IMG/VR virus record: IMGVR_UViG_3300034073_005389
Coordinates: 186,001 to 250,000 of that record
Source of the DNA: a virus
Reading direction: 5' to 3' (one strand)
DNA: 64,000 nucleotides
In this document: positions 4,135 through 44,457 of the stretch, piece by piece
How the letters are laid out: each line of letters opens with the position of its first letter
Numbering within the stretch: position 1 is the stretch's first letter
The notes under the pieces: model-generated
Database searches by the model: none
What the model was told of the DNA's origin: nothing
Seen by the model: the letters and a program-made list of their open reading frames with translations, nothing else
Made by a program: the position numbers and the translations under genes

Positions 4135-5916
4135 TTAAGCTGAAATATTTTCTATATATTTACAACCCGTTGCTACACAAGCGTAAAATTTACCATATTT
4201 GCCATTTCTTTCCATCATAAAATGATTACATTTTTTACACAAATGCCTATCTTTCACATAAGCAGCATAAGCATTATGCATTTCTTTAGCAAACACCTGG
4301 TAAAACTTTTTTAACATCTCTAATTTATCTTCTTTTCCATTCTCAATTAAATCTAATTTAGACTCTAGATCAGCAGTGTAATTATAATCCATAAATGTAA
4401 AAAATTGTGTTAAAATATCTGTGATCTTTTTGCCTAACTCAGTAGCATGGTAAACATTGCCCTTTTTCTCTACATAATTACGAGATGTAATTTTACTCAA
4501 CAAATCCGCATAAGTAGCTGGGCGACCTATGTTTTTATTTACTAACTCTTTAATTAGCTTATCTTCTGAATATCTGGCAGGTGGTTGAGTTTGCTTGCGC
4601 TCTAACTTAACAGCTTTATCACCAGATAAATCGACTAAATCACCCTTTTTAAGGTTAGGAATCTCAATTTTACTATCATCATTTACTCCTAATACCTCTA
4701 AAAATCCTTTGCTCTTTAAAGCTTTGCCAGAAGCTTTTAACTCTAAACTAGAATCAGACTTAGATGCAACAGTCACTTTTAATGTATTGTATACAGCCGG
4801 TGCCATCTGACTAGCTACAAAATACTTCCAAATAGTTTCATACACTATTTTCTCGTCTGGGTCAATAATGGCAAAGTTTTGTCCTGGTAATAACGATAAA
4901 TCTGACGGTCTAATACATTCATGAGCATCTTGCGCAGCATCTTTATTTTTAAAGACATTTGCCTTTTTAAGCAATTCATAATTATTATTTTTAATAAAAT
5001 CACGAACCTCAGCTAATGCATCATCACCCACTCGAACAGAATCTGTACGAATATAAGTACAATATCCAGATTCATATAATGCCTGAGCAGCCTTCATAGT
5101 TCTATCTGCACCAAAGCCATGATTTTTAGACATAATCTGCTGCAAAGTAGAAGTTACCAAAGGTGGTGGAGCCCCTCGCTTTTCTTCTTCTGCCAAAACC
5201 TCTGTCACTACATAGTCTTTGGCTTTAGACAATTTATCTTTAACTTGTGATGCTGTTTTAGCATCCGTTAAACGAGTATTGTATTTAGTAATAAATGTGT
5301 CTTTATTTTGATCATTTAAAGCAACTTGAATAGTCCAAAACTCTTCTGGCACAAATGCTTCAATTTCTTTTTCTCGCTCAGTAATCATACGAGTTACAAC
5401 GGATTGAACCCTGCCAGCAGAAAGATTTGAACCAAAAAAATTAATTAAAAATGGCGAGGCTGTAAACCCTACCAACCTATCTAATATGCGGCGAGCTTCT
5501 TGGGCATGAAACAAATTTAAATCAATATCCCTAACTTCTTTTACCGCCTTAAGAAGCTTGTCTTTTTTGATCTCATTAAAAACCATTCGCTTGATAGGCT
5601 TACCTACATCTTCTAAACGATTGGCTAAATGCCAAGCAATAGCCTCCCCCTCCCTGTCAGGATCGGGCGCTACTAAAATAGAATCACACTGTTTAGCAGT
5701 TGACAATAAACTATCTAATAGATCTATTTTATCATCCATTAACACATATTTAGGTTTAAACTTATTTTCTATATCGATACCGATACCGTGCCTACCGCCT
5801 TTAGCAAGGTCTGTAATATGACCTTTGCTTGCCATAACGATATAATTGTTGCCTAAATATTCTTGAATTTTTTGTGCTTTAGAGGGGGACTCTACAATTA
5901 CTAATGTTTTACTCAT
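4135..5916 (-). CDS. topA: DNA topoisomerase I (type IA)
   Basis: A complete type IA topoisomerase of 593 residues. It has the Toprim domain (VIVESPSKA at the start, DPDREGEA at 85-92) and the catalytic Tyr288 in TYIRTDS. The C-terminus holds a single zinc-ribbon-like segment (CKKC ... ACVATGC, about 560-585), against three or more in E. coli TopA (865 residues), so it is a short form. It relaxes negative supercoils by single-strand passage with a 5'-phosphotyrosine intermediate, relevant to replication and transcription of a large phage genome. The start overlaps the upstream VSR-like gene by 4 bases. Confidence 0.93.
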   Translation of the reverse strand: MSKTLVIVESPSKAQKIQEYLGNNYIVMASKGHITDLAKGGRHGIGIDIENKFKPKYVLMDDKIDLLDSLLSTAKQCDSILVAPDPDREGEAIAWHLANRLEDVGKPIKRMVFNEIKKDKLLKAVKEVRDIDLNLFHAQEARRILDRLVGFTASPFLINFFGSNLSAGRVQSVVTRMITEREKEIEAFVPEEFWTIQVALNDQNKDTFITKYNTRLTDAKTASQVKDKLSKAKDYVVTEVLAEEEKRGAPPPLVTSTLQQIMSKNHGFGADRTMKAAQALYESGYCTYIRTDSVRVGDDALAEVRDFIKNNNYELLKKANVFKNKDAAQDAHECIRPSDLSLLPGQNFAIIDPDEKIVYETIWKYFVASQMAPAVYNTLKVTVASKSDSSLELKASGKALKSKGFLEVLGVNDDSKIEIPNLKKGDLVDLSGDKAVKLERKQTQPPARYSEDKLIKELVNKNIGRPATYADLLSKITSRNYVEKKGNVYHATELGKKITDILTQFFTFMDYNYTADLESKLDLIENGKEDKLEMLKKFYQVFAKEMHNAYAAYVKDRHLCKKCNHFMMERNGKYGKFYACVATGCKYIENISA

Positions 5917-7329: not shown

Positions 7330-8515
7330 ATGTTTTTGCTTCATCGATAATTGCCTTTCTAATTCTATTTACATATACCATGCCTCCCATTTGATAGTGG
7401 GGAGGAACTCTTAAATGAGTAACTTGAACTACAGTATTGTCTGGTACATTGATCTTTATCTTATTAAAAGAATATTCTTTTAATAAATGAATAATCGATT
7501 CTTTTGTATCATTATTAATGATAGATAATACTTTCCCAATATAATAAGGCTTAGAATAAGTAGCGCATCTTCCACCAATATAATATTCTGAAGTGTTATT
7601 ATTAATGGTCTGATTTTGTACAACAGCTTCAAAAACAGAAATACCATCAAATAAACATAAGTTTTTATCTAATAAATTATTTATAATAATAAATTTTCTG
7701 TTTTTTCTTATTTGAATTGGAAAAGAGTTTTCTAATAAAGAAATGTATTTTTGAAATATTTTATGTTGAAAACCTCCAGACCTACTATTACCTAGTAAGT
7801 AGTCTGTCATTTGATCTGGAAATTGGTTTAATAACTCTTTAAAGGCTTGATATACGAATAATTTATGTGTAACGGTAAAGGCGCTGGTACTAAAAGCAAG
7901 CTGGTTACTTTGTTTTTCAACAATTTTATTAAGCAATAAAGCTTTATTGTTAAGTAATTTATTCTCTACTTGAGAGATGGGCGGTGGGGGTGCAACATTT
8001 TGCAATATTGGATGATGCATCTTTTTTAGATCAGATGGATCTCCAATAAAGCTACAATCAGGATAAGGGCAAATAATATTTTTTGATTTATTATCAGCAA
8101 TAAACCTATTGCAACCATTACATCTATAGCCTGCTTTATAATGATAAGAAAAATATCTATATAATCTAATATATTTTTCTTCTTTACATTGTTTTAATTG
8201 TTGTTTGCATTGATTGCAATCTAATATTTTAGATCCTGATAAAATGTTAATTTTATTGTGAAATAAGCATGCAGGACAAATATAATTCTTCTTAGAAAAA
8301 GAAGAATATGTTTTAGCAAACTGATTGCTATTATAAAAAAGTATGTTATCAATATCTTCTACAAGATAATTTTTTACATTATCTAAAAGATAATCTTCTA
8401 AATTTTCTAGAAAATCTTCTTTAGAAATTTTCTTACTATACTTGGTGTATAATGTATGAATACCATTTTGGTATTTATGAAAAAAATCATGAATAAATTT
8501 TATATTTTCGCTCAT
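7322..8515 (-). CDS. Hypothetical protein with multiple zinc ribbons
   Basis: 397 residues, no family recognised. Residues ~75-170 carry four CxxC-type knuckles (CPAC, CNQC, CNGC, CPYPDC), consistent with two or three zinc ribbons. A proline run (APPPPIS) separates this from a C-terminal domain of ~190 residues containing YYIGGRCATYSKPYYIGKV. Zinc ribbons suggest nucleic-acid binding. The start overlaps the end of the FtsK-like gene by 29 bases, so the two are probably coupled and may work together. Confidence 0.55.
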   Translation of the reverse strand: MSENIKFIHDFFHKYQNGIHTLYTKYSKKISKEDFLENLEDYLLDNVKNYLVEDIDNILFYNSNQFAKTYSSFSKKNYICPACLFHNKINILSGSKILDCNQCKQQLKQCKEEKYIRLYRYFSYHYKAGYRCNGCNRFIADNKSKNIICPYPDCSFIGDPSDLKKMHHPILQNVAPPPPISQVENKLLNNKALLLNKIVEKQSNQLAFSTSAFTVTHKLFVYQAFKELLNQFPDQMTDYLLGNSRSGGFQHKIFQKYISLLENSFPIQIRKNRKFIIINNLLDKNLCLFDGISVFEAVVQNQTINNNTSEYYIGGRCATYSKPYYIGKVLSIINNDTKESIIHLLKEYSFNKIKINVPDNTVVQVTHLRVPPHYQMGGMVYVNRIRKAIIDEAKTYE

Positions 8516-9482
8516 TTTGTAAAATTTCTTTTGAAGAAGTCATAGCTATTTGGAATCTTTCTAAGAATCTAAAATTATCTTTAATCAAAGCATCTCCTTT
8601 ACCAGATAAATTTTCAGCGCCTACTTCATCTAGTATGATTTTAGAATCAAAATGACTGGCGACTTTGCAAGCAATTCTGGCAGGAAAATTTGCTTTTATA
8701 TTACCGCTGATGATTTGGGCAGAAGGTCTTTGAGTAGCAATGATAATAAAAATGTTAGCCCCTCTGCTTTTTTGAGCTAAATCACACAAAGCATCATGAA
8801 ATTCATTATTTTTATCTTGCAACATAAGGTTTGCAAATTCATCAATAACAAGAATTTGAGGAGTCATCCATTCTAATGAATCTCCTTTCTTTAGGAAAGA
8901 ATATCTTTGCTCCATAAGATAATGAAGAGATTTAATTAGTTGAAGTGCGGAATTATAGCTATACGCAACAGTTCTAATAGAAGAATACCCAGAAAACTCA
9001 ACTTGCTTTGGATCAACTAAATGCAAGTCAGCGATATCGTAATGTAAAATATTTGCAATAATATTATGTAATAATGTACTTTTACCAGAGCCTGTAGTTC
9101 CGGCAATAAGTAAATGAGGATTTTCTGCCAAATCCATTGTCAATAATGATCCATCAACTTTTTGACCTAGAACGCAAGGTATTTTAAAATCTTTGGTGTC
9201 AAAGATTTTAAATAAATTATAAAGAGAAAGATTATTTTTTTCTATTTTTGCAAATTCTAATCTAACCAAACCTTCTTGGTGACGGATACTGATATTCGGT
9301 TTAGATGGTGCTTTTAATAAAAGGGCGATTTCGTCGCTATATTTTGTAATATCTTTGATCTTAGCAGTTGGCTGAAGAACTAAATCATAATAAAAATAGT
9401 TGCCTACTTCTTGATAGTTAGTGCAACTAGCTTTAATTTTATAGGAATTAAGAATATTGTTTAAATTTAAAATTTGATGCAT
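8487..9482 (-). CDS. FtsK/SpoIIIE-like DNA translocase
   Basis: About 331 residues. The motor shows Walker A GTTGSGKST (about residues 128-136), HLVDPKQVEFSGY, Walker B ILVIDEFANLM and the IIATQRPSA sensor strand, all diagnostic of the FtsK/SpoIIIE/VirB4 group. The N-terminal ~110 residues are small, with no membrane segments and no C-terminal gamma domain, so this is a soluble motor. Genome handling or segregation is plausible. The ATG at 9500 overlaps the predicted -10 box; the ATG at 9482 lies about 7 bases past the predicted transcription start and is preferred. Confidence 0.85.
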   Translation of the reverse strand: MHQILNLNNILNSYKIKASCTNYQEVGNYFYYDLVLQPTAKIKDITKYSDEIALLLKAPSKPNISIRHQEGLVRLEFAKIEKNNLSLYNLFKIFDTKDFKIPCVLGQKVDGSLLTMDLAENPHLLIAGTTGSGKSTLLHNIIANILHYDIADLHLVDPKQVEFSGYSSIRTVAYSYNSALQLIKSLHYLMEQRYSFLKKGDSLEWMTPQILVIDEFANLMLQDKNNEFHDALCDLAQKSRGANIFIIIATQRPSAQIISGNIKANFPARIACKVASHFDSKIILDEVGAENLSGKGDALIKDNFRFLERFQIAMTSSKEILQNERKYKIYS

Positions 9483-9495
9483 GTATGGTAAAGAT

Positions 9496-9523
9496 ACCAT
9501 AATTTTTTAAAATTATGCGTCAA
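9496..9523 (-). promoter_or_regulatory. Promoter of the FtsK-like operon
   Basis: TTGACG (9523-9518), a 16-bp spacer and TATGGT (9501-9496). Upstream of the -35 is a TATTTT-A-AAAATA inverted repeat (9533-9545) overlapping the previous stop codon. The spacer is itself palindromic (CATAATTTT, AA, AAAATTATG). Confidence 0.6.
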
Positions 9524-9531
9524 GAGGGCAG

Positions 9532-9936
9532 TTATTTTAAAAATAGGTTGTATTTTTCTGCAAAAATTTTTTTTAGCTGTTTGTGATTTGGCTTAATCAA
9601 GCCAACTGAATTACCAATTTTAACATTAGATTGTTCCATTGTTCCATATGGAAACTCTATTACTAAGTCACTAAAAGAATTGTCTCCGATAGTAGCAGTA
9701 CTATTAGGAACGCCTTTACAAATTTGTGTAATTTCTCCATTATTACAAAAAACTATGTCTAATGGGCTTGGTGTATTTTTCATCCAGAATTTATTAACTC
9801 TAGGAGATGCATAAACAAAAGACATAATTGGCGGAGGCCAAGGTTGACGCATAAGACCTTTAGCTTGTTCTTGATCAGAAATAGCTAATAAAGTAGGAAA
9901 TATGTACTCTGAAATATAAACATATCCAGTTTCCAT
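9532..9936 (-). CDS. DUF192 family protein
   Basis: 134 residues matching DUF192: AKGLMRQPWP, an MSFVYA strand, FWMKNTPSPLDIVF and a GEITQIC strand in order. DUF192 proteins are small beta-rich proteins, often exported in bacteria, of unresolved biochemical role. No signal peptide is seen, so this one should be cytoplasmic. It is 2 bases from the upstream 487-residue gene and ends just before the FtsK-like promoter. Confidence 0.8.
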   Translation of the reverse strand: METGYVYISEYIFPTLLAISDQEQAKGLMRQPWPPPIMSFVYASPRVNKFWMKNTPSPLDIVFCNNGEITQICKGVPNSTATIGDNSFSDLVIEFPYGTMEQSNVKIGNSVGLIKPNHKQLKKIFAEKYNLFLK

Positions 9937-9938
9937 AA

Positions 9939-11402
9939 TTAATCCTTAGGTCTATATTGTCTAGTTATATGAGTTACTTTATCTCTAGTTTCTCTTTCTA
10001 ATATTCTTCTTCTTTCATCAGGAGAGGCTCCTGGATACAATATTTCATAATATTTACTTTTCATTTGCTTAATTTTATCGTCAATTAAAGCAAAATTACG
10101 AATTAATAAATCTGAATTAAATTCTTTTTCTAATGCATCCATGGATTCATCAATCAATGAATTGGCTTCATCGGATAATTGAATTAGCTCTACGCTAACA
10201 GCCACTCTTAAAGCTTCACTAGAATCTTCGGTGGTAAAGGTTGCTACTGATAATAAGTTATTAACTTTATTTTGATCGTCAAAAACATTATTTTCGTCTG
10301 GATTATTACTTAAATCCTCTTCGTCTTGTTGCTCTTCTTCTTTTGCTTTACTTTCTTCTACATTACGTTTAAGCCTCTCAAATGCATTAACTACGTTTTG
10401 AACTAAAACTTTGTCAGATTTATCATCAGCTTCACTAAATATGTTAATACTCTTAAGAAGTCTGTTATATAGTTTTCTTAATTCTAAGTTACTCAAACTA
10501 GGCGATAAAGCTCTAGCAAGATCGTCTATGTCATGGACAGTTTTTTTGTTTCTGTTTATAACAAGTTCTTTAACCTCATCAGGGGTGGGTTGATCGATAG
10601 GCGTAGATGAATCTTTGGAGGATGGTGCAGGGGCTGGCGTAGCGACTGGTGTAGCTGCTGGTGTAGCGGCAGGTTCTGTAGTAGGTGGTGGTTTTTCTTT
10701 TTCTTTTTTCTTATCTTGATCTGATTTAGGCTTTGCGGGCTCAGATTGTAAAGACTCTTTAATAGTTTCTAAAGAAACTCCTGAAGCAGCAGCAATTAAA
10801 TTAATTATTGAATTCCAATTTGACTCAATATTTAAAAATATTGATTTAGCATTTTTTACATCTTCTGTTGAAGGAGTGAATCTGTATAAATATCCTTTAC
10901 CTAATTTTCTTTCAAATTTCCTAATATCTCTATATAGTTGAAGCAAAGAATCTAATAAAGACATTCTATAGATGCGTTGCTTCCCGCCTTGCCCCCAACC
11001 AAAAGGACCAAAAGTAGGAGTAAGTAATTTAGTAAAAAATCTAGAAAAAATATTAGAAGCTTCAACAGTTAAAACTCCTTCATAATTTTCAATAGCTGCT
11101 GTTTTTTTCTTTTTTCTATTTTTAGAATAAGAGTCTTGCTCTTGTGTTATTTTTTCTGCTTTTTGAGCAATAGAGTTATACTTATTAGTTAAATTAGAAA
11201 TAATATCAACTGGATTACCAGGAATTGGTTCAATAATTTTAGATTTTTCTTGAAAAAAAACGCTAGGAGAGCCATTTATTAATTTTTTAAAATTAATAAC
11301 ATCATGAATTAATTCTGATACTTCTTTATTCCATTCTTGTTTATTCTGCCTTAGCTGTTCTTGAGCAGGATCAGAAGATGGTTTTCTAGCATATTTATTC
11401 AT
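9939..11402 (-). CDS. Hypothetical protein with Pro/Ala-rich linker
   Basis: 487 residues, not recognised. The N-terminal ~210 residues look helical (RKFERKLGKGYLYRFTPS). A Lys/Glu then Pro/Ala/Thr-rich linker spans about 225-270, with repeated AAPTPAAT-like units. The C-terminal ~200 residues are charged helices with an acidic run. No catalytic motif is visible. A scaffold or structural role is possible; nothing around it (ClpP genes upstream, DUF192 downstream) settles this. Confidence 0.5.
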   Translation of the reverse strand: MNKYARKPSSDPAQEQLRQNKQEWNKEVSELIHDVINFKKLINGSPSVFFQEKSKIIEPIPGNPVDIISNLTNKYNSIAQKAEKITQEQDSYSKNRKKKKTAAIENYEGVLTVEASNIFSRFFTKLLTPTFGPFGWGQGGKQRIYRMSLLDSLLQLYRDIRKFERKLGKGYLYRFTPSTEDVKNAKSIFLNIESNWNSIINLIAAASGVSLETIKESLQSEPAKPKSDQDKKKEKEKPPPTTEPAATPAATPVATPAPAPSSKDSSTPIDQPTPDEVKELVINRNKKTVHDIDDLARALSPSLSNLELRKLYNRLLKSINIFSEADDKSDKVLVQNVVNAFERLKRNVEESKAKEEEQQDEEDLSNNPDENNVFDDQNKVNNLLSVATFTTEDSSEALRVAVSVELIQLSDEANSLIDESMDALEKEFNSDLLIRNFALIDDKIKQMKSKYYEILYPGASPDERRRILERETRDKVTHITRQYRPKD

Positions 11403-11429: not shown

Positions 11430-12017
11430 TCAGATAATCTGGTCAATTAAACCATACTGCAAAGCTTGCTTAGCATCCATCCAAACATCTTGCTTACAAT
11501 CTTCTTTTAGTTTTTCTAGTGGATGACCTGTATGCTGAGCTAAAATTTTCATAATATTATCATTATTTTCTTTAATAAAATCATAATAATTTTTTGAATT
11601 TATAATATCTTGACCTGGTAAAGGAAATGCGAACTGAATACCATGAATCATGATTTTGGATGACTTCATAGCATATCTTTCTCCTTTTGCTCCGGCAGCC
11701 AAAATAACTGCACCGGCAGAATAAGCTTTACCGGCACATATTGTTTTAACTGGAGCTGAAATCATCTGCATTACATCATAAATATTAGCTAATCCAGCGG
11801 CATCTCCACCATTTGAATGTATATAAATGGTAATTGGTTCTTCATGATTTTCGTTATCATAATAAAGTAATAAGGCAGCTAGTTCGGCAGCACTTTGTTT
11901 AGTAACATCTTCAGATAAGAAGATCATTCTATCTTTAGTTAATCTAATATATGTTTCTGCATACCCGGCTAATGGATTTTTAGCGGCATCATGATCTTGT
12001 AAAGAATGTTTCTTCAT
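11430..12017 (-). CDS. clpP: ClpP-like serine protease, catalytic triad intact
   Basis: 195 residues, normal ClpP length. The oxyanion strand (HSNGGDAAG), nucleophile elbow AYSAGA with Ser100, MIHG with His125 and Asp177 in KQDVWMDAKQA align with the ClpP Ser-His-Asp triad, so it should be an active peptidase subunit. ClpP forms a tetradecameric chamber fed by ClpX or ClpA; no Clp ATPase gene is seen here, so it would rely on host or distant phage ATPases. It lies 6 bases downstream of a paralogue that lacks the triad, suggesting a mixed ring. Confidence 0.88.
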   Translation of the reverse strand: MKKHSLQDHDAAKNPLAGYAETYIRLTKDRMIFLSEDVTKQSAAELAALLLYYDNENHEEPITIYIHSNGGDAAGLANIYDVMQMISAPVKTICAGKAYSAGAVILAAGAKGERYAMKSSKIMIHGIQFAFPLPGQDIINSKNYYDFIKENNDNIMKILAQHTGHPLEKLKEDCKQDVWMDAKQALQYGLIDQII

Positions 12018-12023
12018 AAACCC

Positions 12024-12608
12024 TCATTTAGAAATAGAAATAACTTTGTCAATCAAACCATACTTTACAGCTTGATTTGCGTTCATAAACACTGTTCTTT
12101 CAAAATCTTCCATTACTTGTTTAAGTGGTTTATTACAAGATTTAGAAAAAATCTCCATCATTCTTTTGTTATCTGACATAGATTGGTCTAATATTTTCTT
12201 AGCGTCTGTTAAATTAGAATTAGAATACCAATCGTGTACTAATTGTCCTGCTGAAATAACAGAATTTTTAGTAGCGAATCTCATTCCAGGAGTTCCGCCT
12301 GCCAGAATAATAGCAGCCTCATCCATGGCAGAGCCAATACAAACAGTTTCAATAGGCGATTCAATCATAGACATGATATCATAAATCATTAATGCGTTAC
12401 GAATATCACCTCCATCAGAATTAATAAATAATGTAATTTTTTTAGAACAATCCTCTGCATCTTTTAGCAGAAGAGTTGCAACAATATCTGTGGCTAAATT
12501 ATCAGTAATTTGATTACATAAAAATAAAATTCTATCATTGGCTAATTTTTGATATACGTCAATAGCAATATCACCATTTTCGGTGTTTTCAATAACTAAT
12601 GTATTCAA
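12024..12608 (-). CDS. ClpR-like inactive ClpP paralogue
   Basis: 194 residues with the same fold landmarks as its neighbour (INSDGGDIRNALMIYD, ANQAVKYGLIDKV), but all three catalytic positions differ. The Ser position is Asp96 (GSAMDEAA), the His position falls in SAGQ, and the Asp position is Thr172 (ERTVFM). This resembles ClpR subunits of cyanobacteria and plastids, which join rings with active ClpP and tune them. The start is TTG, inside a TTGA overlap with the DksA-like stop, with AGAGG about 9 bases upstream. Co-assembly with the active subunit is inferred. Confidence 0.83.
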   Translation of the reverse strand: MNTLVIENTENGDIAIDVYQKLANDRILFLCNQITDNLATDIVATLLLKDAEDCSKKITLFINSDGGDIRNALMIYDIMSMIESPIETVCIGSAMDEAAIILAGGTPGMRFATKNSVISAGQLVHDWYSNSNLTDAKKILDQSMSDNKRMMEIFSKSCNKPLKQVMEDFERTVFMNANQAVKYGLIDKVISISK

Positions 12609-12964
12609 GGAATTGACCTCTTTCTTTGTTTTTCTTCTTTTTCTCTAATTTCTGCACATACTACACAAGTAGTAAAATATGGATTAATTTCTAATCTTTT
12701 ATGAGGAATTTCCTCTTCACAATCTTCACAAAGACCATAATTACAGTTATCAATTTTAGCAAGAGCCTCTTCAATTTTATTAATTTTATTCTTTTTAAGA
12801 ATAAGAAGTTGAGTGGCTGTGCCCATTAACATATTGCCTTGAATTTCATCGGTCTCATCTCCATCAATATCTACGCCGATATCATTCATAATTTGAGAAT
12901 ACAATATGTCTTTTTGAGACAATAAATCTTCTTTGATTTTTAAAATAAATTGCTTATTTAACAT
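12605..12964 (-). CDS. DksA/TraR-type C4 zinc-finger protein
   Basis: 119 residues. The C-terminal motif CNYGLCEDC ... TTCVVCAEI is the DksA/TraR C4 zinc finger, preceded by an ~80-residue helical part. Family members insert a coiled coil into the RNA polymerase secondary channel and mimic or assist ppGpp; phage TraR-like proteins redirect host transcription. The acidic tip residues cannot be assigned with confidence. It overlaps the ClpR-like gene by 4 bases. Confidence 0.8.
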   Translation of the reverse strand: MLNKQFILKIKEDLLSQKDILYSQIMNDIGVDIDGDETDEIQGNMLMGTATQLLILKKNKINKIEEALAKIDNCNYGLCEDCEEEIPHKRLEINPYFTTCVVCAEIREKEEKQRKRSIP

Positions 12965-13329
12965 TATTCAAACCTTAAATCTATAATAGGTACAATGGTT
13001 GTGTTTTTATTAGAATCTTTGCTACTATTTAAATTTTTTAAAAAAACTAAAAATGCATGATTTTCTGGGCTTTCAAGAAAAAATGCATTCACTTTCCAAT
13101 CCTGATAAATAGCTGGTTTAATAATTCCATTAAATTTTAAATTTACAGGAGTAGGAGGAGCATGTACTTTTTTTCTTAAAAAAGGACCTTCTATTTGAGA
13201 GGGTATTAATCCATATTTTTGTTTATACATAGATACTGCTTCTTTTTCTGAAAGAGCAGTTATTGATTCCATCAATAATTTTTCTTGTACAATAGCGGCA
13301 CAAACATAAAAAATAGGTTTTTTACTCAC
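12964..13329 (-). CDS. Hypothetical protein
   Basis: 121 residues, not recognised. An N-terminal alpha/beta part (FYVCAAIVQEKLLMESI, then EAVSMYKQKYGLIPSQIEGPF) is followed by a beta-rich region. The pattern resembles small phage proteins whose sequence indexes residues onto a short alpha-beta fold, but no function is known. It shares one base with the DksA-like gene and overlaps the HU-like gene by 8 bases. Confidence 0.5.
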   Translation of the reverse strand: MSKKPIFYVCAAIVQEKLLMESITALSEKEAVSMYKQKYGLIPSQIEGPFLRKKVHAPPTPVNLKFNGIIKPAIYQDWKVNAFFLESPENHAFLVFLKNLNSSKDSNKNTTIVPIIDLRFE

Positions 13330-13666
13330 TATCCTTACCTATATTATTTTTAATCATCTTGTCAATATCCAAGAAACTTATTAATTTCTTTTTGAATTTA
13401 TTGGCAACTTTAAAAAATATTTTTCTTTTACTTCTAGTAATAAGATGTTTGTTTCTAAATTTAATAAAATATTTTCTAGGAGCAGTTCTTTTTACTCCAA
13501 AAATTCCTAGATTAATAATCTTAAATTCTTTATCTTGCCTAATATCTTTAGATAATTCATCAAATAATATTGCTATTACACTAAAAACATGATGATGATT
13601 AATTTTTCTTTTAATTTTTTTATTTACATATTTATACAGCGCAACCCTATCAATTTTTTTGATCAT
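13322..13666 (-). CDS. HU/IHF-like DNA-binding protein
   Basis: About 114 residues, close to HU length. The VFSVIAILFDELSKDI helix, IINLGIFGVKRTAPRKY arm and a C-terminal basic FKVANKFKKKL segment follow the HU/IHF layout. HU-type dimers bend and compact DNA. The ATG at 13666 is chosen because AAGGA lies 7 bases upstream and it forms an ATGA overlap with the previous stop. A second HU-like gene lies at 15261-15605. Confidence 0.72.
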   Translation of the reverse strand: MIKKIDRVALYKYVNKKIKRKINHHHVFSVIAILFDELSKDIRQDKEFKIINLGIFGVKRTAPRKYFIKFRNKHLITRSKRKIFFKVANKFKKKLISFLDIDKMIKNNIGKDSE

Positions 13667-14004
13667 ACTTTTGTCCTTGACCATAAGATCCTGCCTTTAC
13701 CAAAAGAAGGATCTAAATATTTTTTATAATTTTCGTGAACAATTTTCCTATTTTCAAACCTAGAAACAATTCTTGTTTTAAAGAAAACTGAATTATTTAG
13801 CAACTCATCTGAGATGATATATTTTTTGTGTTTATTTATACATTTTTCACATAAACCATTAAATATATTATCAGAAGCAAATAAATTATGGGGAGAGTTT
13901 TTTTCTATATATTTGCCGCAAAAAGTAGAATACTTTTTATCAAAATTAAATTTTAAATTAACAATATGTGGAAAGTCATTATTATCTGTAATAAAGCAAA
14001 ACAT
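13663..14004 (-). CDS. Hypothetical Cys-containing protein
   Basis: 113 residues, not recognised. Cys residues at STFCGKY and GLCEKCINKH suggest one zinc site. The C-terminal end is basic. It follows the preceding gene immediately and overlaps the HU-like start by 4 bases. Confidence 0.5.
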   Translation of the reverse strand: MFCFITDNNDFPHIVNLKFNFDKKYSTFCGKYIEKNSPHNLFASDNIFNGLCEKCINKHKKYIISDELLNNSVFFKTRIVSRFENRKIVHENYKKYLDPSFGKGRILWSRTKV

Positions 14005-14995: not shown

Positions 14996-15264
14996 CTAAA
15001 TTTTCCCAATCTAATATTAGACATTAAAGATCTAATATCTACAGGTTGTAGATTAATTTCTGGTAATTCTAATAATGATTTTTCAATATAAGATTCATAG
15101 TCAAAATTATCGCCATTTTCTCTTCTTTTACCCAATTCTTGCATACAAAGAGTCGCTAGCTCTTTATAAGAATTTAAATATCTATAGCAAACAATTATTT
15201 GACATAATTTTTCACTACTAAATGTAGGTATTTTATTTTTTGTTTCTTCTAATAAATCAATCAT
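14992..15264 (-). CDS. Hypothetical small helical protein
   Basis: 90 residues, not recognised. Helical throughout (LCQIIVCYRYLNSYKELATLCMQELGKRREN), ending in a basic IRLGKFR. It overlaps both neighbours by 4 bases, which fixes it as part of the operon started by the HU-like gene. Confidence 0.55.
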   Translation of the reverse strand: MIDLLEETKNKIPTFSSEKLCQIIVCYRYLNSYKELATLCMQELGKRRENGDNFDYESYIEKSLLELPEINLQPVDIRSLMSNIRLGKFR

Positions 15265-15605
15265 GCAGGAAGCCTCACTAGCCAGCTAGGAGAAGAAATA
15301 AATGGTCTGACACGGACATATTTTTTAGGTTTGGTAATTTTTATTCTTAAATTATTAAAAAGACCGGAAACCGTTACAATTTCTCCTCTGATTAAAAATT
15401 CTCTTATACTTTCAAATGTAGCGTTTATTATAACAGCTATTTCTGTTTTAGATACCAATGGATATCTGGCATGAATTCTTTCTATTAAATCTTCTCCTTT
15501 ATCAAACTTAATAGGATATTGTTTATTTATGGCAGAGATTACCTCATCGAATGTTGTGTTATTTAAGATAACAGAATAATTATTAAAATGTTTTATTCTT
15601 TCCAT
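15261..15605 (-). CDS. HU/IHF-like protein, divergent
   Basis: 114 residues. The segment VSKTEIAVIINATFESIREFLIRGE followed by IVTVSGLFNNLRIKITKPK fits the HU helix-helix then beta layout (the usual IxGFGxF is SGLFNNL here), with a ~45-residue N-terminal extension. It is first of the minus-strand operon, facing a divergent plus-strand gene across a 95-bp gap. DNA binding is inferred from the fold resemblance. Confidence 0.55.
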   Translation of the reverse strand: MERIKHFNNYSVILNNTTFDEVISAINKQYPIKFDKGEDLIERIHARYPLVSKTEIAVIINATFESIREFLIRGEIVTVSGLFNNLRIKITKPKKYVRVRPFISSPSWLVRLPA

Positions 15606-21748: not shown

Positions 21749-22102
21749 TGGTGGAGAATTGGGGAGTCGAACCCCATTCCGCAGAATATTATTATGTAAA
21801 CTCATTCACAAACTTAGCCAGTTTTACATCTCTAGCGATGTCAATAGATTTAGCTCTATTAAGCGATTCACTGTTGTTTTTATTATTAACCTCGTGACCT
21901 GATTAATAACTAACCTTGGTGGTTAAGTGTCTGTAGAATACTAAGGTTATCTCTTCTCAGACACCCAATCAGGCAGCTAGTGCCATTGGAGCAAATGCAT
22001 TATCGTTGGCATTTAAACGTCGATTGCTGGATTAACGGAATGGCAATCATTTCCTGTTTGCATTTACACAACTCTAAACCACGTCGAAACCAAGTATTCC
22101 CC
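21749..22102 (-). ncRNA. ssrA: tmRNA (transfer-messenger RNA)
   Basis: About 354 nt. The 5' GGGGAAT pairs with 3' ATTCTCC over 7 bp (one G-U), then discriminator A and encoded CCA (21749-21752). A GGGG-TTCGACT-CCCC T arm and the 5' conserved GGTTTCGACGTGG complete the tRNA-like domain. The internal frame reads ANDNAFAPMALAA then TGA, the ALAA ending typical of the ClpXP degron. It rescues stalled ribosomes by trans-translation. Pseudoknots were not folded. Phage-borne tmRNA is known but uncommon. Confidence 0.95.
21969..22010 (-). other. tmRNA tag reading frame
   Basis: Resume codon GCC, then AAC GAT AAT GCA TTT GCT CCA ATG GCA CTA GCT GCC and a TGA stop. The tag is ANDNAFAPMALAA. The ALAA end would be bound by ClpX in most bacteria. 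Confidence 0.9.
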
Positions 22103-23799: not shown

Positions 23800-24393
23800 A
23801 TGATTACTTTTATTATACCTACAATAAATAGAAATACTTTAAATAGATCAATTGATTGTTTATTATCTCAATATAACCCAAATTGGAAAGCAATTGTAGC
23901 TTTTGATGGTTTACCTGCCTTACATTTTCCAGACCCTAGAATTACTTCAATTAGTGTGCCTAAAACAGGAAAATTGAACCATGCAGGTAATGTAAGAAAT
24001 ATTGCTATTTCCAAAGCTGATACAGACTGGGTAGCTTTTCTTGATGATGATGATACTATTTCTAATGATTATGTAGATAGGTTAGTAGAAGAAACAAAAG
24101 AAAATCCAGAAGCTAAATGTATTATATTTAGAATGAAAACCTCATTTGACCCCGTTGGTATTTTACCAGAACCAAATCATAATACATTTTATAAGTGCAG
24201 GGTAGGGATTAGTTTTGCAATAAAAAAAGAAATAAATATAAACTTTGAACCATCTCACATAGAAGACTTTATTATTTTAAATAAAATAAGAGAAAATGGT
24301 CATAAAATAATTATTTCTCCTTATGTTACTTACTTTGTAAGAGAAAATCCTTGCCCAATGCCAGCCTTTAAAAGAGTTAAAATTAACTATTAA
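23800..24393 (+). CDS. GT2-family glycosyltransferase
   Basis: 197 residues. FIIPTINRNTLNRSIDCLLSQ and FLDDDDTISNDYV with the acidic DDDD metal site are typical of GT-A (GT2) enzymes. Short for the family, so it may be a minimal transferase domain. It runs plus strand, convergent with the fucose-synthase gene (4-base overlap at 24390), at the left edge of the glycan island. Confidence 0.8.
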   Translation: MITFIIPTINRNTLNRSIDCLLSQYNPNWKAIVAFDGLPALHFPDPRITSISVPKTGKLNHAGNVRNIAISKADTDWVAFLDDDDTISNDYVDRLVEETKENPEAKCIIFRMKTSFDPVGILPEPNHNTFYKCRVGISFAIKKEININFEPSHIEDFIILNKIRENGHKIIISPYVTYFVRENPCPMPAFKRVKINY

Positions 24394-25331
24394 TAATTTT
24401 CTCTATACCAATCAATAGTTTTAATTAAGCCTTGTGTTAAAGAAGTTTCTGCAGTAAAATTTAGTAATTGTTTTGCCCTAGAAACATCCAATAAGCGTTT
24501 TGGCTGACCATCAGATACTTCTCCAGTAAAGATAATTTGACCTTTAAAATCAGTCAATTCTGCTATTAGATAAGCTAAATCTTTAATAGAGATATCAACA
24601 CCAGTTCCTATATTAATAGGAAGTTCTGTGTCTAATTTTTGCTCTACAGCTTGTAATATGGCTTTAGCACAATCTTCTGCATAAAGAAACTCTCTAGTAG
24701 CATTTCCAGTGCCCCAACAAAATACTTGAGGTCTATTTTCTTTTACTGCTGTAACAAACTTATTAATTAAAGCAGGTATTACATGGCTATTTTCTAAATC
24801 AAAATGATCATGAATCCCGTACATATTCACTGGTATTAAATGAGCCCCTTTTGTTTGATATTGCTGCTTCATAGATTGAAACAATAACATCATTGTTTTT
24901 TTAGCGAGACCATATCCAGAATTCGTTTCTTCTGGAAAGCCTTCCCATAAACTATCTTCTTTAAATGGCGCGGGGCAGTATTTAGGATATCCACAAACAG
25001 AACCTAAAGTATAAACATATTCTACTTTATGTTCTAGACACTGTTCTAAAACATTAGAGTTCATTTGTAGATTAAATAAGGTTAAATCAGCGGGTTGTCT
25101 TTGATTTAATCCTATTCCTCCGCATTTAGCAGCAGCATGAATTACTATGTTTGGCTTAATTAAATTAAATAATTGCTCACATTCGCTTTGCTTTTCTAAG
25201 CGATAAAATTTTTTATTATAAGTTTGTCCAACAAAATACAAATCATATTTGTATTGGTAAGGCATAAATACTTTTTGAAGATTTTTGCCTAAAAATCCAG
25301 TGCCGCCAGTAATTAAAACTTTTTCTTTCAT
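24390..25331 (-). CDS. fcl: GDP-L-fucose synthase (GMER/WcaG)
   Basis: 313 residues, full length. The Rossmann motif GGTGFLGKNLQ, AAKCGGIGLN, TLGSVCGYPKY, the catalytic SGYGLAKK (YxxxK) and NMYGIHDHFDLENSHVIPALI match GDP-fucose synthase. It performs 3,5-epimerisation and 4-reduction of GDP-4-keto-6-deoxymannose. The substrate comes from the adjacent GMD gene, 6 bases upstream. Confidence 0.92.
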   Translation of the reverse strand: MKEKVLITGGTGFLGKNLQKVFMPYQYKYDLYFVGQTYNKKFYRLEKQSECEQLFNLIKPNIVIHAAAKCGGIGLNQRQPADLTLFNLQMNSNVLEQCLEHKVEYVYTLGSVCGYPKYCPAPFKEDSLWEGFPEETNSGYGLAKKTMMLLFQSMKQQYQTKGAHLIPVNMYGIHDHFDLENSHVIPALINKFVTAVKENRPQVFCWGTGNATREFLYAEDCAKAILQAVEQKLDTELPINIGTGVDISIKDLAYLIAELTDFKGQIIFTGEVSDGQPKRLLDVSRAKQLLNFTAETSLTQGLIKTIDWYRENY

Positions 25332-25337
25332 AATATT

Positions 25338-26327
25338 TCAAGTATTGTCTTTAATAAGTTTTTCTTGTTTCGCTAGCTTTAAATCATGCGCGATCATTTC
25401 ATCTACAAGCATTTCAAAAGTATACTCTGGTTTCCACCCTAATTTATTTCTTATTTTAGAAGAATCTCCTTGTAAGGCATCTACTTCTGTTGGGCGCAAA
25501 TACTTAGGATCAAATTTAACATATTGTTGATAATCTAAATCTAATTTATTAAATACTAGTTCTGCAAATTCTTTTACAGAATGCATTTCGCCAATAGACA
25601 CAACATAATCATCTGGAGTATCAGATTCCAAAATTTTAATCATTGCTTTTGCATAATCTTTTGCATGACCCCAATCTCTTTTTGCTTCAAGGTTTCCTAA
25701 ATATAATTCATTTTGTAAACCTAATTTAATTCTAGTAGCTGCTCTAGTAATTTTTCGAGTAACAAATGTTTCAGCTCTACGCTCGCTCTCATGGTTAAAA
25801 CAAATTGTATTGCAAGCAAATAAATTATAAGCTTCTCTGTAATTGATGGTAGAATAATATCCTGTTGCCTTTGCTACTGCGTAAGGAGATCGTGGATGAA
25901 AAGGAGTATTCTCATTTTGTGGCGGAGGCGTAGAGCCATAAAGCTCACTTGAAGAGCTTTGTAAAAATCTAGTGTTAGGACTATATTTTCTAATAGCTTC
26001 TAGGCACCTTATAACTCCAGTACCGGTTATGTCTACTGTGTACTCTGGAATATCAAAAGAAACTCTAACATGAGATTGTGCTGCCATGTTAAAGAACATA
26101 TCTGGATTTATGTCAGACACCAAGTTGGCTATGGAAGAATAGTCTGACAAATCACCATATATTAATTTAAGATTAGGATGATCGAACAAATGATCTATTC
26201 TATCTGTATTAAAAGAAGATGATCTACGTTTTAAACCATAAACTTTATAATCTTTTTCTAAAAGAATATCAGCTAAATACGAACCAGTTTGTCCTGTGAT
26301 ACCTGTAATAATTGCTGTTTTTGACAT
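25338..26327 (-). CDS. gmd: GDP-mannose 4,6-dehydratase
   Basis: 329 residues. TGITGQTGSYLADILLE, LKRRSSSFNTDRIDH, SSSSELYG and the YAVAKATGYY active site match GMD. It converts GDP-mannose to GDP-4-keto-6-deoxymannose, a branch point to GDP-fucose (the reductase just downstream) and to GDP-perosamine (the aminotransferase at 31692-32789). Enzymes to make GDP-mannose are not seen, so the host pool would be used. Confidence 0.95.
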   Translation of the reverse strand: MSKTAIITGITGQTGSYLADILLEKDYKVYGLKRRSSSFNTDRIDHLFDHPNLKLIYGDLSDYSSIANLVSDINPDMFFNMAAQSHVRVSFDIPEYTVDITGTGVIRCLEAIRKYSPNTRFLQSSSSELYGSTPPPQNENTPFHPRSPYAVAKATGYYSTINYREAYNLFACNTICFNHESERRAETFVTRKITRAATRIKLGLQNELYLGNLEAKRDWGHAKDYAKAMIKILESDTPDDYVVSIGEMHSVKEFAELVFNKLDLDYQQYVKFDPKYLRPTEVDALQGDSSKIRNKLGWKPEYTFEMLVDEMIAHDLKLAKQEKLIKDNT

Positions 26328-42298: not shown

Positions 42299-43336
42299 TC
42301 ATATAAATACAGATAATTTATTAAACTCAGGAAATTTTTGCATCAAATATTGAATATCTGAATGTTTTTTATTTTTAGCTAGCCAATTAATAATCTTTTT
42401 AAAATTAATAGTGGGTACTTCTTTTAATAAATTTAAAATTTTATCTGTATTAGATCTTTTGTGAGTAGACGACCTACTATAAACTTTTTCTAAGTAAATG
42501 GGCAATAAATCATCCATCCAAATAGGATCTAATAAAATAATTTTTTTGAAAAAATTAAAAAAATTAGCTTCTAATTCTAAAATATTTAAAGATTTTATTA
42601 TCTCAAATACTCTGTTTTTATTAGAAATAAATTTTTCTTTTATTTTTAAAAAAATATTTTCATCAGAAAAACATTCTAAAAGTAGAGAAGATTTATAAAA
42701 TATTTTATTATAATTTTTCCTATCAAAAACTAACTCACAAATTGAATCAAAAATTTTAATCTCGTCTACCTCAAAATTTTTATTTTTTAAATCTTTAATA
42801 AGTCTAAGTAAATTAGGAAATTTTTTATAATAAAAAATAACATTACAAATATAATCTGTAATTGAATCTTTAATTGAAAGATAAAAATCTTGCAAAAAAG
42901 TAATTAATTTTTCATAACTAACAAAAGAAGGTAATTTATATAAAAAATTTTTTATGTTTTTGCTGGTAGAAGTAGGATATCTAATTTTAGAAAACTCTAA
43001 AAATTGAATATATTCTAACTTACTTAGAATGCTTTTATTATTTCTTAACTTTAAAGAATAGTTAAGCTTATTTATTAAATAATTTTCTATGTTAACAATT
43101 AGTTTTCTATACTTAATAGAATTAAGTAGCGCAAACCTACTCTCCCAAAAACCAGCTTCCCAGGCAATATTAGAAGACTTATAAAGTCGATCCCAAAAAT
43201 ACTTTAAATGGTATGGGTGATTAGAGCGTAGATTTTTCTTAAAATTTTTTAAATCAATATTTTCTTGATTAGTAAAAAATAAAGTATCTACTTGTTTTCT
43301 AAATTCTGGATTAACTTTTAAAGTAATCGCTTCCAT
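42299..43336 (-). CDS. Hypothetical Lys/Asn-rich protein
   Basis: 345 residues, not recognised. Largely helical, strongly Lys/Asn/Ile-rich, no motif. The start overlaps the end of purA by 19 bases, so the two may be coupled. Function open. Confidence 0.5.
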   Translation of the reverse strand: MEAITLKVNPEFRKQVDTLFFTNQENIDLKNFKKNLRSNHPYHLKYFWDRLYKSSNIAWEAGFWESRFALLNSIKYRKLIVNIENYLINKLNYSLKLRNNKSILSKLEYIQFLEFSKIRYPTSTSKNIKNFLYKLPSFVSYEKLITFLQDFYLSIKDSITDYICNVIFYYKKFPNLLRLIKDLKNKNFEVDEIKIFDSICELVFDRKNYNKIFYKSSLLLECFSDENIFLKIKEKFISNKNRVFEIIKSLNILELEANFFNFFKKIILLDPIWMDDLLPIYLEKVYSRSSTHKRSNTDKILNLLKEVPTINFKKIINWLAKNKKHSDIQYLMQKFPEFNKLSVFI

Positions 43337-44457
43337 GGTATTAAATCCTGAGGCTCTATCCCGTAAGATATATATCGTACTTTACGACCTGTATTGACTT
43401 CTATTATATTAATAAATACTTGTAAGTCACTTGTTTTTTTACTATCTTTCCATCCCTGAATTTTATTCATAATAGGATTGCTGTAAAAAAAATCTTTGGG
43501 GCAAGAAATAGGATCTTGATATGAAGTGCATACTGGAACTTCTTCCATTCCTTCTAAAATATCAAATTTTGATATAATCAAATCAGTAATCCCGCCACGA
43601 TCACAAGCATATTGTAATGCTGGCAAATCTAGCCAGCCTACTCGACGAGGTCTGCCAGTAGTAGCCCCATACTCTTTCCCACGCTCTCTTAATTCTTCTG
43701 CCTCTTTACCAAATATTTCTGTAGGAAATGGTCCTTCACCTACTCTGGTAAGATAGCATTTTGCTACACCATATACTTTATCTAAATTCAGATATCCAAA
43801 TCCACTTGCAATGATCCCAGCAACAGTAGACTCGCCACAGCTTACAAATGGATATGTCCCATGATTAATATCTAGCAGAATACCTTGAGCGCCTTCAAAC
43901 AAAATATCATCAGCTAAAAATTGTTTTTTTAACTGATAAGAAGAACAAAGATGAACGCCTAGTTTTTCTAACTCTTGCAAATAAGAGTTGCATGATGAGT
44001 GAAAATATTCGCCAGAAACCAGATCCCTAATTCTATGACCAGAACGAGATATTTTATCTTTATAAGCAGGACCAATGCCACGGTTAGTAGAACCAATATG
44101 ACCATTGGATGATTTATCTTCTTCTTGATGCTCAGGTAAAACTAAAAAAGCATCTAAATCAAGATAAACTCTGCTTGGCAATGCAGAATCAATATCCGCT
44201 AATTGACTTACTTCTTTTAAAAGCTGTTTTAGGTCAATTACCATTCCAGACCCAAGAAATGCTTTAGGTCTAGGAGACCTCCAATCAAAAGAAGGTAATA
44301 GGTTATGAACATATTTTTTACCATCTCGGTAAATAGTATGTCCTGCATTAGCTCCTCCGCCAAATCTGACTATCCAGTCATAGTTAGGAGAGAAGTCATG
44401 AGTTACACGACCTTTTGACTCATCTCCTGCCTGTGCACCTAAAACAGCTATTTTCAT
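43318..44457 (-). CDS. purA: Adenylosuccinate synthetase
   Basis: 379 residues (bacterial PurA about 430). GDESKG at 11-16 replaces GDEGKG but keeps Asp12, the catalytic base. GGANAGHT holds catalytic His40; STNRGIGPAY, LFEGAQGILLDI, YGATTGRPRRVGW (aspartate-binding) and ISKFDILEG (GTP base) are present. IMP plus Asp plus GTP give adenylosuccinate. Phage PurZ enzymes for 2-aminoadenine DNA lose that Asp, so this looks like PurA. The Gly-to-Ser change in the P-loop is unusual. Confidence 0.9.
   Translation of the reverse strand: MKIAVLGAQAGDESKGRVTHDFSPNYDWIVRFGGGANAGHTIYRDGKKYVHNLLPSFDWRSPRPKAFLGSGMVIDLKQLLKEVSQLADIDSALPSRVYLDLDAFLVLPEHQEEDKSSNGHIGSTNRGIGPAYKDKISRSGHRIRDLVSGEYFHSSCNSYLQELEKLGVHLCSSYQLKKQFLADDILFEGAQGILLDINHGTYPFVSCGESTVAGIIASGFGYLNLDKVYGVAKCYLTRVGEGPFPTEIFGKEAEELRERGKEYGATTGRPRRVGWLDLPALQYACDRGGITDLIISKFDILEGMEEVPVCTSYQDPISCPKDFFYSNPIMNKIQGWKDSKKTSDLQVFINIIEVNTGRKVRYISYGIEPQDLIPWKRLL

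Follow-up and report, generated by a model that had tools for sequence, protein, structure and literature searches.

A conserved tandem of an active-type ClpP and a catalytically dead ClpP homologue in large phages

Locus and distribution of the pair

The window, by which we mean the whole 64,000-nt stretch of viral DNA analysed here, spans bases 186,001–250,000 of a virus record totalling 361,490 bp and carries two adjacent genes for ClpP homologues, arranged head to tail on the minus strand. We refer to the upstream gene as R and to the downstream gene as P. These genes, their neighbours and a tmRNA discussed below are located as follows.

8487..9500, minus strand: FtsK/SpoIIIE-like ATPase, a conserved neighbour
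9532..9936, minus strand: DUF192 gene, a conserved neighbour
9939..11402, minus strand: 487-aa gene whose family was not recognised, directly downstream of P, position conserved
11430..12017, minus strand: P, clpP-like gene, 195 aa, ATG start, predicted active-type ClpP
12024..12608, minus strand: R, clpR-like gene, 194 aa, TTG start, ClpP fold with a dead triad
12605..12964, minus strand: DksA/TraR-type zinc-finger gene (PF01258), directly upstream of R and preceding the pair in every locus examined
13322-13684 and 15261-15605, minus strand: two HU-like DNA-binding proteins, within a run of genes conserved upstream of R and P
21749..22102, minus strand: phage tmRNA, tag ANDNAFAPMALAA

Both proteins match the Pfam family PF00574 over 172–178 of its 182 positions, P with an E value of 9e-51 (model positions 8–179) and R, a full-length ClpP homologue, with an E value of 4e-47. 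Each shares ~32% identity with E. coli ClpP, and the 361,490-bp record contains no further ClpP homologue. The TTG start of R overlaps the stop codon of the gene upstream (TTGA), and the order DksA-like gene, R, P, 487-aa gene, DUF192 gene, FtsK-like gene is conserved in nearly all loci. A search of PADLOC-DB, which collects anti-phage defence proteins, returned no match for either P or R.

The first-pass annotation had pointed to other large phages as the place to look for the same pair, and 30 distinct tandem pairs were recovered. An IMG/VR scan with P yielded 27 loci, with R directly upstream of P in all 27, and a scan with the R alignment yielded 34, every one of them a tandem pair; removal of duplicates left the 30 distinct R–P pairs on which all counts out of 30 are based. 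Exactly two ClpP homologues were present in each of the 16 pair-bearing records tested for this. Among 84,980 bacterial and archaeal genomes (one per species), a scan with the P alignment found a single contig, which carries both R and P, and a pattern scan with the R alignment found no match. That contig is 383 kb long and is binned in a Chitinophagales MAG, although it is probably a phage; its R protein has also lost the Gly-Gly-Asp motif. A close relative of R in UniProt (A0A6J5RS39, 72% identical) is named simply ClpP. By contrast, Ser-His-Asp is kept in 11/11 ClpP genes that we inspected in jumbo and huge phages outside this group (phage G, Atu_ph07, Phosso, SCTP-2, Lak-B5, Munch and three genomes of 634–642 kb), and none of these genes has an inactive neighbour.

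Several other genes in the window are recognisable, all on the minus strand. At 4135-5916 lies a type I DNA topoisomerase (TIGR01051, above cut-off), and at 24390-26327 a GDP-mannose 4,6-dehydratase is followed by a GDP-fucose synthase-like gene, in a region that also has a DegT-type aminotransferase, a nucleotidyl transferase and a glycosyltransferase and is likely devoted to sugar biosynthesis. The adenylosuccinate synthetase-like gene at 43318-44457 has a best PHROG labelled PurZ-like, whereas NCBIfam favours an ordinary PurA, below cut-off.

Catalytic residues and axial loop

Residue columns were set by alignment to E. coli ClpP, which upheld the first reading of the window, including the gene coordinates: P has Ser100, His125 and Asp177 at the triad columns, and R has Asp96, Gly121 and Thr172 at the Ser, His and Asp columns, respectively. 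The proposal of an active gene beside a dead one is borne out across the family, in a pattern that chance would hardly produce. All three catalytic residues are absent from R in 30/30 distinct relatives, where the nucleophile column contains D (18), N (6), K (2), F (2), Y (1) or G (1), the His column S (15), T (7), G (4), N (3) or D (1), and the Asp column R (16), K (7), Q (2), L (2), T (1), I (1) or P (1). The P relatives retain Ser in 30/30 and His in 30/30, with Asp (21/30) or Glu (9/30) in the third column. P is nevertheless derived in its own right, since Gly replaces Gln123 and Glu takes the Asp position in those nine, and its activity is uncertain for that reason.

The first-pass annotation had named a local shift in the alignment as one way in which the triad of R might be restored, and a check on the R alignment found no such shift, with no relative having Ser at the nucleophile column. 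The window R does contain a His (VHDW) four residues past the His column, where His also occurs in 13 of the first 23 relatives. A second candidate, an Asp97-Arg171 salt bridge in place of the triad, is found in 16/30 R proteins; we do not claim it because it is absent from the window R, which has Asp, Gly and Thr. The former groove of R holds several nearly invariant new residues (E. coli numbering), namely Asp69 (29/30), Glu98 (29/30), Thr114 (30/30), Gln123 (28/30) and Leu124 (29/30), and because of these the dead groove may have a purpose of its own.

A difference in the opposite direction is seen at the axial loop. Mean entropy at the axial-loop positions (E. coli 2–18) is 1.20 bits in R vs 2.22 bits in P, a difference not equalled in any of 10,000 permutations, and the axial-loop motif, which in the window R reads LVIENTENG, is present in 26/30 R proteins and 0/30 P proteins. 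This motif marks only the VIEQT type of loop, because Bacteroidota-type and several huge-phage ClpPs that fail it carry a different aligned sequence (ILEERQLN and the like); it is also absent from two bacterial secondary ClpPs in our set, Listeria ClpP1 and that of Neochlamydia. Judged by their sequences, the losses are thus complementary: the axial loop is gone from P but kept in R, and the catalytic residues are gone from R but kept in P.

In the window P the canonical loop is replaced by a His/Asp-containing tail, and about half of the P proteins have a His/Asp-rich N-terminal tail. Within approximately residues 5–15, at the site of the axial loop, 13/30 relatives show a His-[Asp/Glu/Asn/Ala]-His motif, weak in the window P (QDHD), that could bind metal at the pore. 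Docking-pocket residues vary less in R than in P, although not significantly so (permutation p 0.11), and the R pocket is non-canonical, with Tyr60 replaced by Thr and Leu114 by Thr. An acidic residue and Arg at positions 169–170, which we take to be the ring-ring sensor of S. aureus ClpP, are retained in most R proteins and not in P. AlphaFold2 predicted a ClpP fold for R (pLDDT 78), with strands at residues 4–17 weakly predicted, and Foldseek matched this model to solved ClpP chains with a TM-score of ~0.87; the P model (pLDDT 81) is disordered over its first 15 residues.

Descent, synthesis and possible partners

In a maximum-likelihood tree of the R and P sequences with 21 bacterial and phage ClpPs, cyanobacterial ClpR not being among them, R forms one clade (100/99) and P another (100/99), and the two together are set apart from the 21 others (100/98). 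This topology is compatible with a single duplication in the phage lineage having given rise to both, with rooting and long branches as a caveat. The branching order within R and P is largely parallel, as would be expected if one ancestral pair had been inherited together. Median identity is 59% among R proteins, 54% among P proteins and 32% between R and P. Once the distance signal shared by neighbouring genes was removed, the R–P distance correlation (partial r 0.67, 22 genomes) ranked 1 of 66 neighbouring gene pairs, a value that the homology of R and P may inflate. For the closest pairs, dN/dS is approximately 0.05–0.14 for R and 0.03–0.21 for P, values that are rough because dS exceeds 1; at the codon level R is under purifying selection, and is therefore no decaying copy.

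R starts with TTG in 25/30 (GTG 2/30, ATG 3/30), whereas P and the eight neighbouring gene families that we checked mostly start with ATG. The TTG start, at 12608 in the window, is conserved across highly diverged phages, which suggests that a weak start keeps R synthesis low relative to P and speaks against the two proteins simply being made in equal amounts.

We looked for partners of the pair in the other genes of these phages. The ClpX zinc finger was found in none of 13 pair-bearing records searched, and neither ClpS nor SmpB in any of 16, of which several are fragments and seven exceed 350 kb; the ClpB_D2-small domain was likewise found in none of the 16 viral records. AAA_2 matches in 11/13 records were considered as a phage-encoded unfoldase and rejected, as they are weak and the two inspected do not look like ClpX. 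These two (L032 766-1878 and L035 1219-2325) belong to a conserved phage AAA ATPase family of ~370 aa that looks like MoxR-type and has no match in the window's record. The phages thus have no recognisable Clp unfoldase, and the unfoldase, if one is used, would therefore be the host's. A full-length tmRNA is present in 14/16 pair-bearing records, and it is possible, by association only, that it is a functional partner of the pair. The tags in related phages include ANDNAFVPMAQAA, ADEFAFAEAA and ANDNAFAMAA, and those read end in LAA, QAA, EAA or MAA; an ending in QAA or EAA instead of LAA might alter recognition by host ClpX.

A proposed shared proteolytic core and its precedents

We consider it more likely than not that R and P are the two kinds of subunit in a single Clp proteolytic core encoded by the phage. 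The two proteins would form one complex, built from an R7 and a P7 ring stacked together or from rings that contain both, with the axial loop of R contacting a host unfoldase of the ClpX, ClpA or ClpC type, so that substrate would enter through the R face and then be cut by P. The non-canonical docking pocket of R, its TTG start and the derived residues of P weigh against this proposal. Two weaker elements of this proposal are that the conserved TTG start would set the R:P ratio and that proteins tagged by the phage tmRNA might be among the substrates. A division of labour in which P cuts and R docks would fit both cyanobacterial and plastid ClpP–ClpR and Streptomyces ClpP1–ClpP2. We regard as a tentative extension, and clearly less probable than the shared core itself, that the phage core replaces that of the host: R would dock host unfoldases through its bacterial-type loop and swap host ClpP for phage P, and with its own tmRNA the virus would own both ends of ribosome rescue, tagging as well as shredding, and borrow only SmpB and the unfoldase.

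The first-pass annotation had offered two readings, a mixed ring and a decoy that poisons host ClpP. We favour the mixed complex because of the constant tandem, the complementary losses and the first-ranked R–P rate covariation, none of which a decoy explains. As a decoy, R would enter host ClpP rings, or dead R rings would occupy host unfoldases, blocking host proteolysis while P served as a separate phage protease. Such a role would suit a protein that keeps the ClpP fold and a bacterial-type axial loop in phages lacking their own unfoldase, so that host unfoldases are the likely contact, but it leaves unexplained why R is only ever found next to P, why the loop has been lost from P and why the pair covaries in rate above all other local pairs; we consider it unlikely. 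Slightly less likely still is that P acts as a lone peptidase and that R, its former active-site groove put to a new use, serves as a scaffold or binding protein, the two forming no joint protease, as the almost invariant new groove residues would allow; obligate adjacency, the complementary losses and rate covariation speak against it. ClpP-like phage proteins are often annotated as prohead proteases, and the best PHROG match of both R and P is indeed the head maturation protease family phrog_94, yet that family spans 622 positions whereas R and P are plain ClpP proteins of ~195 aa, and within ~4 kb there are no capsid genes, the neighbours being DksA-, HU-, DUF192- and FtsK-like or of an unrecognised family rather than structural, which makes a role in capsid maturation improbable. 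That R is a functionless duplicate, as the loss of its catalytic residues might imply, has next to no probability, a pseudogene being ruled out by dN/dS and by conservation at least equal to that of P, with R intact in every record.

Returning to the shared core, we searched the literature for a ClpR or an inactive ClpP in phages and found none described. Iyer and colleagues, in a survey of jumbo phages, suggest that ClpP might be turned against host proteins and mention no inactive paralogue (PMC7824862), and in huge phages tmRNA has been reported by Al-Shayeb and colleagues, whose main text does not mention ClpP (PMC7162821). Two families of Clp protease genes have been described near bS21 in ~50 phage genomes, with inactivity of either not stated (PMC9723584); these may or may not be the R–P pair. 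If the proposal is true, the pair would be, on the literature searched, the first ClpP/ClpR system known from a virus and, with only two genes, a minimal example of a clean split of catalysis and unfoldase docking between paralogues. The role of non-catalytic ClpP subunits could then be tested with just two proteins, of which 30 natural variants are available. It would also suggest that large phages may gain control of protein turnover by providing host unfoldases with a peptidase core; no such route has been described for the single ClpP that other jumbo phages encode.

The other huge phages (phage G, Atu_ph07, Phosso, SCTP-2, Lak, Munch and the 634–642 kb genomes) likewise encode their own ClpP, but as single or double genes that all have Ser-His-Asp, and in phage G a ClpX-like gene adjoins clpP. 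Among bacteria, Listeria ClpP1 (L102 in the tree), which is active only within a heterocomplex (PMC5361862, PMC9765437), lacks the axial-loop motif as phage P does, but its triad columns hold Ser, His and, in place of Asp, Asn, and its partner, ClpP2, is catalytically active. The Streptomyces ClpP1P2 system offers experimental precedent for the split that we propose, as ClpP1 gives activity and ClpP2 binds ClpX, ClpC1 and ClpC2 (PMC9765437), so that one subunit cuts and the other docks the ATPases; both of its subunits have an intact Ser-His-Asp, unlike phage R.

The closest parallels are with ClpR itself. ClpR subunits belong to the core in plastids, with their P-ring and R-ring, and probably also in apicoplasts (PMC7966870), where a dead R is maintained beside an active P, although plants have nine core subunits and these are organelle encoded or targeted, whereas the phage pair is a minimal two-gene tandem. 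In Synechococcus, ClpP3 and non-catalytic ClpR form a mixed core that is active with ClpC (PMC4673316), a two-subunit core of known function in which an active ClpP is again joined by a homologue lacking the whole triad (PMC4673316, PMC7966870); the phage pair differs in being viral, in having no adjacent unfoldase gene, and in forming R and P clades of its own in a tree without cyanobacterial ClpR. The comparison with ClpP/ClpR made in the first-pass annotation is therefore apt, in that an active-type ClpP adjoins a homologue without the triad, and by this analogy the novelty would lie in finding in a virus a ClpP/ClpR division of labour that is known elsewhere.
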